This document shows positions 47,575 to 53,148 of a stretch of 64,000 bases of DNA, piece by piece; position 1 is the stretch's first letter, and each line of letters opens with the position of its first letter. The stretch is from assembly GCA_949292635.1 (NCBI GenBank), contig CASEZY010000001.1, positions 62,001-126,000 on the forward strand, read 5' to 3'. The position numbers were made by a program, and so were the translations under genes. This DNA is from an uncultured Methanomassiliicoccales archaeon. Its GTDB lineage: Archaea; Thermoplasmatota; Thermoplasmata; Methanomassiliicoccales; Methanomethylophilaceae. The notes below the pieces were generated by a model that was not told the origin of the DNA, searched no databases, and worked only from the letters and a program-made list of their open reading frames with translations.

Positions 47575-48468
47575 TTGGACAACAAGATAATCGCAATCAT
47601 CGTCGTGGCGATCGTCGCCGTTGCGGGAGTGGGAGCATTCTTCCTGCTCAACAACAACGGCGGGGACAACTCCGGTGCCTACGCAGTGAATGTGGACGGC
47701 GTCGAGGCCACCGAGGCCCACGTCACCGACGGCACATACACCATCCAGAGGAATCTGATCGTCTGCATCAAGGGCGAGCTGACCGCTGCCCCCTACGATG
47801 TTCAGCACTTCCTGAACTACATCACCAGCACCGAGGGACAGGCTGTCCTGGGCGAGGAGTTCGTTCCCCTCGCATCATCCCAGATGACCACCGTCCCCGG
47901 CAATCCCACTGAGGCCATCACCCTCACCATCACCGGCTCCACCACCATCGAGCCCATCATGAACGAGCTTGCCGAGGCCTACGAGGCCAAGTACTCCGGC
48001 AGCGGACAGACCATCAACATCAGCATCTCCGGCGGGGGATCCGGTGTCGGAGCCTCCAACGTGGCCGCCGACACATCCGACATCGGCATGTGCTCCAGGG
48101 ACCTGAAGGCCAGCGAGATCGACCAGGGCCTCAGCTCCGTGCAGATCGGCAGGGACGGTGTGGCCGTCATCGTCAACGGTGCCGGTGTCGAGAACCTGAC
48201 CCTCGAGCAGATCGCCAAGATCTACAGCGGCGAGTACACCAACTGGAACCAGGTCGGCGGTGCGGACAAGACCATCGCCGTCTTCGCCAGGGACGACTCC
48301 TCCGGAACCAGGGAGTGCTTCGATGGAAAGATGGGAGAGGCCGTCTCCGGTTGGGATATGAAGACCGGTGTCGTCGAACACAACTCCACCAACGCCGTGC
48401 TGAACGCCGTGAAGACCACCGACGGCGGTATCGGGTACGTGAGCATCGGCGCCCTGAAGGACCTCTGA
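47575..48468 (+). CDS. pstS: Phosphate-binding protein PstS, apparently circularly permuted
   Basis: A 297-residue extracellular solute-binding protein with an N-terminal hydrophobic anchor (residues 5-25). Residues 36-100 (VNVDGVEATEAHVTDGTYTIQR ... EGQAVLGEEFVPLA) correspond to the C-terminal end of normal PstS. Residues 115-297 then give the canonical N-terminal start (TLTITGSTTIEPIMNEL), SGGGSGVG, DIGMCSRDL, DDSSGTRE and end at GIGYVSIGALKDL, where the normal protein would continue. Domain order is thus rotated. Start is TTG with GAGGTG seven bases upstream. It heads the pst operon. Confidence 0.88.
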   Translation: MDNKIIAIIVVAIVAVAGVGAFFLLNNNGGDNSGAYAVNVDGVEATEAHVTDGTYTIQRNLIVCIKGELTAAPYDVQHFLNYITSTEGQAVLGEEFVPLASSQMTTVPGNPTEAITLTITGSTTIEPIMNELAEAYEAKYSGSGQTINISISGGGSGVGASNVAADTSDIGMCSRDLKASEIDQGLSSVQIGRDGVAVIVNGAGVENLTLEQIAKIYSGEYTNWNQVGGADKTIAVFARDDSSGTRECFDGKMGEAVSGWDMKTGVVEHNSTNAVLNAVKTTDGGIGYVSIGALKDL

Positions 48469-48520: not shown

Positions 48521-50524
48521 ATGGAGGCATATCAGCACGGCCTTGCCAAGAGGAGCAGCGCTGAAAAGGACCAGATAATCAAGTACATACTGACCGCCGT
48601 ATCGGCCGTGGCCGTGCTGGCGATCTTTCTAATCATCCTGTTCATAGCATACAACAGCGCGGATGCCTTCGCCAACGTGGGCATCCTGGAGTTCCTGTTC
48701 GGCACCACCTGGGATCCCGCGGACGGCATCTACGGCGCGGTGCCGGTGATCACGGGAACCATACTCGTCACATTGGGCGCGGTGGCATTCGCCGTACCCG
48801 TTGGTGTCGGATGTGCCATCTACATATCCGAGGTGGCCCCCGTCAAGTACCGCAACATACTCAAACCCGTCTGCGAGGTGTTCGCGGGCATCCCCTCCGT
48901 GGTCTACGGTTTCATCGGCCTGGTGGTGATGGTGCCCATCATCCAGGACATCTTCAGCGGACAGACCGTCTACGGCTCCTCGTGGCTGGCTGGATCGCTC
49001 CTCCTCGGGGTGATGGCGCTGCCCACGGTCATCTCCGTGTCCGAGGACGCCATACACGCAGTGCCCCAGTCATACAGGGAGGCATCCCTGGCAATGGGCG
49101 CATCCAAGTGGGAGACCACCATCAAGGTGATCGTCCCCGCAGCCATATCCGGCATATCCGCCGCAGCCATCCTGGGGATCGGGAGGGCGATCGGCGAGAC
49201 CATGGCGGTGATGATGGTCACCGGCAACAACCCGGTGTTCCCCGACCCGCTGTGGAACATATTCTCCGTCATAACAACGATCACGGGAACCCTGGCATCC
49301 GAGATGCCCGAGGTCGTCTTCGGAAGCGTACACTACTCCGCGCTCTTCGCACTGGCACTTATCCTCATGATCATGGTGCTGTTCATCAACTACTGCGCCC
49401 GCGTGGTGATCAGGCGCACCAGGAGGAGGTTCGGCGAGGACGGCGACAAGAATGGAAGGCTCTCCGCCATCATCGGACGCGCCGCCGACCGCTTGATGGA
49501 GAGCCCCGCCTTCAGGAAGATGGCTGCCAGGAAACAGGAGATCCTCCGGGCGGTGGGAGCGGTGCTGCTCTTCGTCTTCGCCTGGATGATGCTGTCCCTG
49601 TTCACCGACGGCCTGATCGCCATGGTCGCCGGGATCGCGGTCACCGTGGCCGTAATCGGAATCATAAGGTATCTTCAGACAGGGGACTCCAAGACAACGC
49701 AGGAACTGTGCCACGGGAGCCTGGGGATACTCATGGCCATGGTCGTGATGATCCTGGTGATCATCATCGGGTACATCTTCATCAACGGCATCCCCGCCCT
49801 CTCCTGGGAGTTCCTCACCGAGTCCCCCAGCAGGATGGGCCGCGAGGGAGGCATCTTCCCCGCGATCGTCGGAACCCTCGAGCTCATGGCCGGGACCATA
49901 GCCATCGCCCTGCCCCTGGGCATAATCGCCGGGGTCTACCTGGCGGAGTACTCCGCCGACAACAGGTGGACCCGCATCATACGCGAAGCCATCGACATCC
50001 TGAACGGCACGCCGTCCATCGTCTTCGGACTGTTCGGCATGGCCATGTTCGTGCAGATGATGGGCTGGGGCAGGTCGATGATCGCCGGATGGATAACGCT
50101 GGCACTGATGATCCTGCCCGTCATAATCAGGACCACGGAGGAGGCCGTGATCACGGTCCCCCACGAGCTGAGGGAGGCGTCCAGGGCGATGGGGGCGTCC
50201 AAGTGGCAGACCACCGTGAAGGTGGTCCTGCCCGCCGCCATCAGCGGCATAGTAACCGGTTCCATTCTGGCACTGGGCCGTGCCGCCGGAGAGACCGCCC
50301 CGATTATGTTCACTGCGGCGGTGGGATTCTCCACCAGCATGGCGGGCAGCATATTCGAACCCGTGATGGCGCTGCCGTACCACCTGTACTACCTCTCCAT
50401 GGAGGTCACGGGCGCAACGACCCAGCAGTACGGAACCGCCTGCGTTCTGCTGATCATCGTGCTGAGCATGTTCCTGTTCGCATCCTGGATCAGATACCGC
50501 AGCAACAAGAAGATCAGATGGTGA
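48521..50524 (+). CDS. pstCA: Fused phosphate permease PstC-PstA
   Basis: A 667-residue membrane protein made of two ABC permease units. Residues 1-305 match PstC ([14 protein letters not shown], then [28 protein letters not shown]). A helical linker with further membrane spans (about 340-420) leads to PstA (residues 420-667, with [28 protein letters not shown] and [14 protein letters not shown]). Normally these are separate genes. The two EAA loops bind the PstB dimer. It sits between pstS and pstB. Confidence 0.92.
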
Positions 50525-50529
50525 TAACA

Positions 50530-51321
50530 ATGGATACCGAAACAATCAACACCGCCGTCCCCAAGGACGACGTCGTCGTGGACATCAGGAACATCAACCT
50601 GTGGTACGGCGAGAAGCAGGCCCTGTTCGATGTCTCCATGCCGGTAAGGAAGAACCGCATCACCGCCCTCATCGGGCCGTCCGGATGCGGGAAGTCCACC
50701 CTGCTCAGGAGCATCAACAGGATGAACGACCTGGTGGAGGGATGCAGGATCGAGGGGCAGATGCTCTTCGACGGGGACGACCTCTACGCCCCGGACGTGG
50801 ACATCAACGCCCTGAGGACGAGGATCGGCATGATCTTCCAGAAGCCCAACCCCTTCCCCATGTCCATCAGGGACAACATAACCTACGGACCGAGGATCCA
50901 CGGCATCCGTGACAAGGCGGAGCTGGACGAGATCGTGGAGTCCTGCCTGCAGAAGGCGGCCCTCTACGACGAGGTGGCGGACCGTCTGGACAAATCGGCG
51001 CTAGGCCTCTCCGGCGGACAGCAACAGAGGCTGTGCATCGCACGCGCGCTCTCCGTCAATCCGGAGGTGCTGCTGATGGACGAGCCTACCTCCGCCTTGG
51101 ATCCGATCGCCACATCCAAGATCGAGGACCTGGCCATCGAGCTGAAGAAGGATTACACAGTGGCCATCGTGACCCACAACATGCAGCAGGCGTCCCGCAT
51201 CAGCGACTACACCGGGTTCATGTATCTGGGCAAGATGATCGAGTTCGGCGACACCGAACCCATGTTCAACAAGCCCAAGGAAGAGATGACCGAGAGATAC
51301 CTCACGGGAAGGTTCGGGTGA
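50530..51321 (+). CDS. pstB: Phosphate ABC transporter ATP-binding protein PstB
   Basis: A 263-residue ATPase. Walker A is GPSGCGKS, the Q-loop is [13 protein letters not shown] (PstB-specific), the signature is LSGGQQQR, Walker B is [12 protein letters not shown], and the switch histidine is in VTHNMQQA. It powers phosphate import through the fused PstCA. ATG 50530 is the first start after the pstCA stop, five bases downstream. Confidence 0.96.
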
Positions 51322-51325
51322 TAGC

Positions 51326-51973
51326 ATGCAGAGATTCGTAGAAGACATAGACGCCATGACGGCGGAGACCGTGGAGATGGGAAGGCTGGCGGCGAAGATG
51401 ATCGCCATGTCCATAGACGCGGTGACCAACAACGACCTGAGGAAGGCGGAGGAGGTCATCGGCGACTTCGAGACCATGAGCCGCTACGACACAGAGATCG
51501 AGGACATGGCCACCAGGATCCTCACCCTGTATCAGCCCACAGCGATGGACACCAGGACCATCGTAGCCGTATTGAAGTCGATCACGTACCTGGAGAGGAT
51601 CGGCAAGTACAGCAAGAACATCGCCATCGCCACGGAGTACCTGTCGGGCAAGGAATCCTATCCCCCGCTGAATCTGATAAGGCCTATGGGTGACACCGTG
51701 GTGAAGATGGTGAACATCGTCACCAAGGGATTCGAGGAGAGGTCGGTGGACGACTTCGGCAGCATAGTGGAGATGGACGACTTCCTGGACGAGACCATGA
51801 GGAAGAGCCTGATCGAGATCGTGGGATTCATCAACACCAACGAGAACAGCGCCGATGTGTGCACCTACTACATCTCCATCCTCAAGTTCCTCGAGAGGGT
51901 GGGGGACCACGCCTGCAAGATGGCCGAGAAGATCAACTTCATGGTCACCGGCATGCACGCAGTCATCCGCTGA
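51326..51973 (+). CDS. phoU: Phosphate uptake regulator PhoU
   Basis: A 215-residue protein of two three-helix PhoU repeats. Metal-cluster motifs E/D-xxx-D are seen in ETMSRYDTEIEDMATRIL and LERIGKYSKNIA, and again in FLERVGDHACKMAEKI. It begins 4 bases after pstB. PhoU dampens Pst activity when phosphate is plentiful. A terminator follows it. Confidence 0.94.
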   Translation: MQRFVEDIDAMTAETVEMGRLAAKMIAMSIDAVTNNDLRKAEEVIGDFETMSRYDTEIEDMATRILTLYQPTAMDTRTIVAVLKSITYLERIGKYSKNIAIATEYLSGKESYPPLNLIRPMGDTVVKMVNIVTKGFEERSVDDFGSIVEMDDFLDETMRKSLIEIVGFINTNENSADVCTYYISILKFLERVGDHACKMAEKINFMVTGMHAVIR

Positions 51974-52146: not shown

Positions 52147-53148
52147 ATGGCAAGACGCATGGAGAGCCGGAAGCTGCAGATGACGGGTGGTTCGTCATAC
52201 ATCGTCACTCTGCCGAAGGAGTGGATAGAGAGCTCCAACCTGAAGAAGAACGACACCGTCTACCTTGAGACCGGCACAGACGGAAGCCTGATCATCAACT
52301 CCAAGGGGGACGGTACGCCCGGCTCCAAGGACAAGCGCCACATCGACGTCACCGACGACATGGACACCGACCTGGTGTACAGACTGCTCGTGGGAGCGTA
52401 TATGGCCGGTTACGACACCATCGAGCTCACCTCCAAGACCGACATGGACCCTTCGATCTCCAACGCCGCCGAGGATTTCACACAGACCTCCATAGGTTTC
52501 GAGATCCTGGAGGAGGACGGCAGATGCATCGTCATCAAGGACCTCATGGACCCGGCGGAGATGAGGCCCAGGAAGAGCCTGGAAAGGATGCGGATCCTGG
52601 TGAAGAACATGATCTCCGAGGTGCTGGCGGCCATGAGGAACTGCACCACCGCCCCGGACCTGGACAAGAGGGACAAGGATATTGACCGTTTAGACTGGCT
52701 CATCGCCAGGCAGAACCACATCTTCCAGAGCCGCCCCGCCCTCTACCGCAAGATAGGCATCTCCCCGGAGGAGATGACCGACTACTACATAGTCTCCCGC
52801 GTCATCGAGAGGATCGGGGACCACAGCGTCACCCTCAATCAGAATCTCGACGCCGTCAACGACCTGGAGGCCCTGCGTTCCATGGCATCCATCATAGAAG
52901 GCATGGGCATCGTGGCACTCTTCAACGAGTCCATCGAGACCCTGCTGGCCAAGGACGCCATAGCGGCCAACGCATGCATCACCAGGTGCAGGTCCGCCTT
53001 GGACGGGATAATCAAGCTGCATGCCATCGGCACCGGCCTGGAGGCCGGGGCGGCGGTGGCGGTGAGCATGATGTCCAGCAACGTTAAGAGAATACTGGAG
53101 TATTCCATCGACATCGCGGAGATCGCCATCAACTCCGCCATGGATTGA
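52147..53148 (+). CDS. AbrB/SpoVT domain-PhoU fusion, phosphate-type regulator
   Basis: A 333-residue protein. Residues 1-50 (MESRKLQMTGGSSYIVTLPKEWIESSNLKKNDTVYLE) form a SpoVT/AbrB swapped-hairpin DNA-binding domain; from about residue 120 come PhoU-like helices (DYYIVSRVIERIGDHSVTLNQNL). This is a common archaeal architecture next to pst genes. It likely binds the AT-rich motifs shared by its own promoter and that of pstS, with PhoU as the signal input. The ferredoxin gene begins at its stop codon. Confidence 0.9.
   Translation: MARRMESRKLQMTGGSSYIVTLPKEWIESSNLKKNDTVYLETGTDGSLIINSKGDGTPGSKDKRHIDVTDDMDTDLVYRLLVGAYMAGYDTIELTSKTDMDPSISNAAEDFTQTSIGFEILEEDGRCIVIKDLMDPAEMRPRKSLERMRILVKNMISEVLAAMRNCTTAPDLDKRDKDIDRLDWLIARQNHIFQSRPALYRKIGISPEEMTDYYIVSRVIERIGDHSVTLNQNLDAVNDLEALRSMASIIEGMGIVALFNESIETLLAKDAIAANACITRCRSALDGIIKLHAIGTGLEAGAAVAVSMMSSNVKRILEYSIDIAEIAINSAMD

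Follow-up and report, generated by a model that had tools for sequence, protein, structure and literature searches.

The gene at the centre of this study raises the question of whether a phosphate-binding protein, PstS, can carry its C-terminal block ahead of its N-terminal block, and of how such an order came about. It lies within the window, the whole 64,000-nucleotide stretch of contig CASEZY010000001.1 from an uncultured Methanomassiliicoccales archaeon that was analysed. The original prediction was that the gene encodes a circularly permuted PstS, with the block that normally comes last placed first, right after the membrane anchor. The features of the gene and its surroundings are collected in Table 1. 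The C-block carries the motifs VDGVEAT, GTYTIQR, EGQ and EEFVPL, in this order, and the final residues of the N-block are GIGYVSIGALKDL. The TTG start codon is common to the window gene and its relatives L003 and L081. N-termini similar to the anchor stretch (47575-47673, residues 1-33) were found on many other ORFs of the family, and short matches to residues 1-35 recur in these ORFs as if a single anchor module had been reused.

Table 1. Features of the pstS gene and the downstream operon in the window (positions are those of the window).
Feature	Position	Strand	Details and basis
pstS CDS, permuted order C-N	47575..48468	+	297 aa, TTG start, stop 48466-48468
N-terminal membrane anchor (residues 3-25)	47581..47649	+	One hydrophobic helix, lipobox Cys absent; sequence, AF2 helix H3-25
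C-block (residues 35-99), C-terminal part of canonical PstS	47677..47871	+	TIGR02136 231-294; 4q8r chain 182-241; profile
Linker (residues 100-114), old C terminus to old N terminus	47872..47916	+	HMM-defined spacing in CN/CNCN genes
N-block (residues 115-297), N-terminal part of canonical PstS	47917..48465	+	PF12849; TIGR02136 33-221
GSTT motif (residues 121-124), phosphate loop	47935..47946	+	G121, S122, T123 invariant
SGGGSG motif (residues 152-157), phosphate loop	48028..48045	+	G155, S156 invariant
DIGMCSRD motif (residues 169-176)	48079..48102	+	S174 invariant, R175 nearly
RDDSSGTRE motif (residues 239-247), phosphate loop	48289..48315	+	R239, S243, G244 invariant, T245 nearly
PstC-PstA fusion permease	48521..50524	+	667 aa; TIGR02138 442 bits, TIGR00974 458 bits, both above cut-off
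pstB, ATP-binding subunit	50518..51321	+	TIGR00972 406 bits, cut-off 343
phoU	51326..51973	+	TIGR02135 156 bits, cut-off 130
AbrB-like N-terminal stretch and PhoU-like part	52153..53148	+	Weak, sub-threshold matches to TIGR02609 and TIGR02135

The two parts of the protein were identified by separate profile searches. Residues 112-297 matched PF12849 (PBP_like_2) with 132.9 bits, meeting the gathering cut-off of 27, and this N-terminal-type part covered positions 33-221 of TIGR02136, corresponding to the initial two-thirds of a PstS. Residues 34-108, when searched alone, aligned with positions 231-294 of the 295 in the same profile (E 2.4e-6). The canonical chains 4q8r and 4gd5 were matched in two swapped pieces, query residues 116-294 corresponding to chain residues 5-178 and query residues 35-96 to chain residues 182-241, and a profile built from 13 permuted homologues located the C piece in 4q8r with an i-E of 1.5e-12. 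After the blocks were re-ordered in silico, TIGR02136 was matched in one stretch (positions 40-294) and 4q8r in a single continuous alignment (chain residues 5-241, E 2.5e-37); the latter indicates that the last PstS block truly stands first. The curated cut-off of TIGR02136, 206.6 bits, was not met by the window protein (162.2 bits) and its re-ordered form scored 177.5. This cut-off fails to distinguish permuted from canonical proteins, because the canonical relative L082 misses it (193.3 bits) and the permuted L040 passes it (235.7 bits). With its C-block ahead of its N-block, the window PstS does not meet the canonical N-to-C order. The same C-N order was found by block HMMs on fetched loci in about two dozen further genomes, and such recurrence excludes chance and assembly error as explanations of the order. 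The rotated block order was thus confirmed, and both the circular permutation and the position claimed for the moved block, right after the anchor, were borne out, the block being placed at residues ~35-99.

HMMs of the N-block and C-block were run on all fetched loci, and again with the N-block split in two. The search of Methanomassiliicoccales covered 147 genomes and revealed four architectures: NC, CN, and the tandem forms NCNC (L045-L049) and CNCN (L003, L011, L012, L013 and L016). The survey of related methanogen genomes called for by the original prediction therefore found the C-N order again, alongside the other three. The genes pstC, pstA and pstB were located downstream in 13 of the 13 neighbourhoods compared, taken across genomes with all four architectures, and these constant neighbours indicate that the block orders are replacements at one locus. 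Among the matches listed, no CN order was found in Methanobacteriota (152 genomes), in Halobacteriota (295 genomes) or in a class-wide sample outside Methanomassiliicoccales. The best 80 named relatives included no CN gene except that of one Methanomethylophilaceae archaeon (L081), and no permuted PstS was found in the viral contigs searched. Four NCNC genes (L209-L212) were present among the matches listed for Halobacteriota. Their products, of 566-593 aa, consist of closely similar units fused in frame, and two of the genomes also possess an ordinary pstS. A further arrangement, b-C-a, in which the chain starts within the N-block, was found in nine Bacillota proteins (L197-L205). A candidate from genome G757, apparently permuted by its Bacillota profile matches, was rejected, since it has the canonical order with an extra N-terminal part. 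Forms with three blocks (CNC or NCN) were absent from the roughly 200 genes analysed.

The AlphaFold2 model of the window PstS was obtained from a 38-row alignment restricted to complete CN proteins and fragments of the N-block, because MAFFT misplaced separate canonical C-block fragments. The model is two-lobed, with a mean pLDDT of 90.7 and values of 83-95 in ten-residue blocks across residues 41-100, through the moved block. It has the two-lobed fold of type II substrate-binding proteins (SBPs), as a prediction and not as a solved structure. Its secondary-structure elements are those of the canonical control model, L082 (pLDDT 90.5), in rotated order. Rotated elements and joined old termini, the marks of a circularly permuted SBP, are met at the level of element lists and of the run shared with 4h1x described below, with no coordinate-level superposition. 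All Foldseek matches of the permuted model with E below 1e-6 were phosphate-binding proteins. Foldseek matching depends on chain order. The L082 control aligned with the canonical 4gd5 over 248 columns (TMt 0.90), and the permuted model aligned with the closest canonical PstS structures over 177-199 columns (TMt 0.53-0.59). Its best match was 4h1x (E 7.6e-18, TMt 0.67, 204 columns), which is explained by 4h1x being itself permuted, with the same C-linker-N run: profile positions 35-220 fall contiguously on residues 79-264 of its chain, the best contiguous match obtained. A crystal structure with the junction of the window protein therefore already exists. Taken as modelling evidence, these data support an intact PstS fold with new termini, as had been proposed; the prediction is confident through the moved block.

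The predicted monomer may instead be one half of a domain-swapped dimer in which two molecules exchange C-blocks. The CNCN proteins would then be the covalent form, with a canonical central N1-C2 and a pair formed by the outer C1 and N2. In support of this idea, the N1-to-C2 spacing in CNCN genes (10-13 aa) resembles that between the N- and C-blocks of canonical genes (mostly 5-15 aa), so that the central part of a CNCN gene amounts to a canonical PstS on its own. However, the C-to-N linker of the 24 CN genes, 8-20 aa by HMM-defined spacing, resembles the 9-11 aa linker of the b-C-a group, to which the solved 4h1x belongs, and the monomer is modelled with confidence in the absence of a partner chain. 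For CNCN genes the linker spacing is 10-13 aa. We regard the exchange as unlikely.

Another possibility is that the window gene is in reality a CNCN double whose near-identical units were collapsed by short-read assembly. The units inside one CNCN gene are mostly mutual closest relatives on the tree. In L016, which belongs to the single-contig genome G058, they are identical at the DNA level over the compared blocks, as expected if the duplication is very recent, if gene conversion is ongoing or if recombination between units is frequent. Near-identical units of this kind may collapse in short-read assemblies. Besides the example of L016, the nearest relative of the window genome (G005) carries the double, and the contigs of several relatives (G080 and G081) end at the gene. 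Against these points, the window gene is internal to a 286-kb contig, and two genomes assembled as one contig, G017 and G135, have single CN genes (L023 and L040, respectively). Some single CN genes in metagenome-assembled genomes, possibly including that of the window, may be doubles; for the window gene itself we think this quite improbable, and its permuted order stands whether it is single or double.

The identity of the protein as PstS was supported by its partners and by its ligand loops. The gene is encoded with pstC, pstA, pstB and phoU, and the conserved loops GST, GS(S/G)G, SR and SGT are present. The contact role of the conserved PstS loop residues is general knowledge derived from PstS structures. 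Conservation was scored across the 38-sequence alignment, where the GST, GS, SR and SGT residues are invariant or nearly so; the expectation that the usual phosphate-site motifs are kept was met. PstC and PstA are fused in frame also in L081 and L082, and are encoded in different frames, as separate genes, in L221 and L223. A protein of the type encoded at 52153-53148 adjoins the pst operon in most relatives; its gene is divergent from pstS in many of them, and the protein is a candidate regulator of the operon. Since the SBP superfamily holds binders of other oxyanions with the same fold, the permutation could reflect a change of specificity towards, for example, phosphite, arsenate or tungstate. 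This is very unlikely in view of the PstCA, PstB and PhoU genes downstream, the conserved PstS loops and the close canonical relatives that occupy the same locus.

A second full-length pstS, which would have refuted the permutation, was sought. The genome (1.48 Mb, 99.9% complete) contains no second PBP_like_2 protein or other match to the window PstS, so the C-block is not a leftover accompanying a complete pstS. Neither within the gene nor next to it was any repeat found that could be the residue of a second pstS copy. The dN/dS ratio was below 1 in both blocks for every pair of relatives with a calculable ratio (0.05-0.55), and these pairwise comparisons show that both blocks are under purifying selection. 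That the block order is a functionless remnant, a pseudogene or gene debris, is barely tenable: nothing but the odd order speaks for it, against an open frame with conserved contact residues, the dN/dS ratios of both blocks, an intact operon with the sole PstS of the genome and the identical order in many genomes.

The history of the order changes was reconstructed on a tree of 82 units, each re-ordered to the canonical order. The order label needs six changes on this tree, six on a tree of the N-block only and seven on a tree of the C-block only. Permuted genes occupy four separate places: clade A, which is the clade of the window gene (genera g1 and g10); genus g14; genus g7, where L022 and L023 are sister to the canonical L032 (100/97); and a clade of families f5 and f6 (98/93). 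A single clade of all permuted genes was rejected (AU p 9e-39), as was the union of clade A with g14 (AU p 1.6e-4). The canonical L021 sits inside clade A with the CNCN gene L011 (100/92), and holding it outside was rejected with an AU p of 0.01. These p values are somewhat weakened because the groups were defined after the tree was seen. When bacterial rows were added the picture held, and the b-C-a proteins formed one separate Bacillota clade. The permuted L064, on a long branch, was left out of the count of origins. From the trees and AU tests, there were at least four independent permutations in Methanomassiliicoccales, and apparently one return to the canonical order (L021, genome G069), the latter resting on the AU p of 0.01. 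In the Methanomassiliicoccus-like genome G117, a canonical PstS (L036/L082) that groups with Methanomethylophilaceae occurs together with a permuted PstS (L044) of the f5/f6 clade, which suggests lateral transfer of a pst operon.

The best explanation, which we hold with high confidence, is that the window gene encodes the working, phosphate-binding and sole PstS of its genome, permuted by tandem duplication and trimming. What the analysis established is the order of the blocks, the conserved residues, the purifying selection in pairwise comparisons, the operon, the single copy, the recurrence on the tree, the living doubles and a confident model; binding, the exact steps and any benefit from the anchor are inferred. 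The protein would be the membrane-anchored binding protein of a PstSCAB importer. We infer that the chain adopts the usual two-lobed fold of PstS; its new ends fall in the loop that connects the GIGYVS and VDGV strands. Phosphate would be bound in the cleft by the GSTT, SGGGSG, SR and SGTRE loops and then handed to the fused PstCA permease, although there are no binding or transport data. As for the route, an in-frame head-to-tail duplication would give NCNC, and loss of the first N and the last C would leave CN. Duplication and trimming could also proceed in the alternative phase via CNCN, which would yield NC again upon loss of the outer blocks. By inference, such routes were taken no fewer than four times within Methanomassiliicoccales, and apparently once in reverse. 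The NCNC and CNCN doubles are the intermediates that a duplication route predicts. Tandem NCNC proteins (L045-L049 and L209-L212) have the same blocks fused head-to-tail in frame, like the expected intermediate; unlike the window PstS, they are in the canonical phase and consist of two complete domains. The original interpretation was largely right as a whole, and its tandem-duplication route was supported by the head-to-tail NCNC genes and the CNCN genes present at the same locus in relatives, as that route predicts. Physically, the clear effect is that the anchor, which in the canonical order is attached ahead of the GSTT strand, now joins the chain at the loop preceding the VDGV strand. A benefit from this anchor position and a neutral by-product of frequent duplication are equally possible explanations of the permutation, and the literature shows no clear benefit of being permuted.

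As a protein, the window PstS has precedents. It shares blocks, loops and operon partners with canonical PstS (Clostridium 4q8r and 4gd5, E. coli 2abh), in which the order is N then C; when the window model is aligned sequentially to 4gd5, the C-block drops out and 180 columns remain, against 248 for the canonical control. Natural permutation was already present in S. pneumoniae PstS2 (SP_2084), whose structure 4h1x, released in 2012, has a C-linker-N junction like that of the window protein; a permuted PstS as such is thus no novelty. However, 4h1x is cut elsewhere and begins with the SGTR half of the N-block (b-C-a), which places its termini before that strand, unlike those of the window PstS; it is bacterial, with homologues that form a separate Bacillota clade, and the window PstS is archaeal. 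No paper on permuted PstS or naming 4h1x was found, which is weak evidence because the search was short on subscription journals. MglB-2 of Treponema pallidum (Tp0684) is also a natural permutation of a membrane-tethered substrate-binding protein, although it has a type I fold, glucose as ligand and a different cut (PMC4990184). Its authors considered tethering as a possible reason for the permutation; they observed poor conservation in the permuted part and could not demonstrate a same-gene origin for it (PMC4990184). The blocks of the window PstS, in contrast, are clearly homologous to the canonical ones.

What is notable is the evolution: at a single locus, permutation has recurred and has apparently been reversible, and the intermediates still exist. 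As a rule, a natural circular permutation is deduced from one ancient event that has left no intermediates behind. Here, canonical, permuted and both doubled forms are found at one operon position in one archaeal order, which makes the duplication route directly testable. We consider it reasonably likely that the order of PstS flips repeatedly and reversibly in Methanomassiliicoccales, with at least four permutations and one return, and with NCNC and CNCN way-stations kept fluid by recombination between units. If true, this would be the clearest natural series of permutation by duplication known to us. Annotation based on profiles hides the block order, since the name PstS is given even though about a quarter of the chain is displaced. 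The several independent transitions and the apparent reversal at the pst locus provide matched permuted and canonical pairs that can be compared, and the relocation of the anchor raises the question of its effect on phosphate capture.
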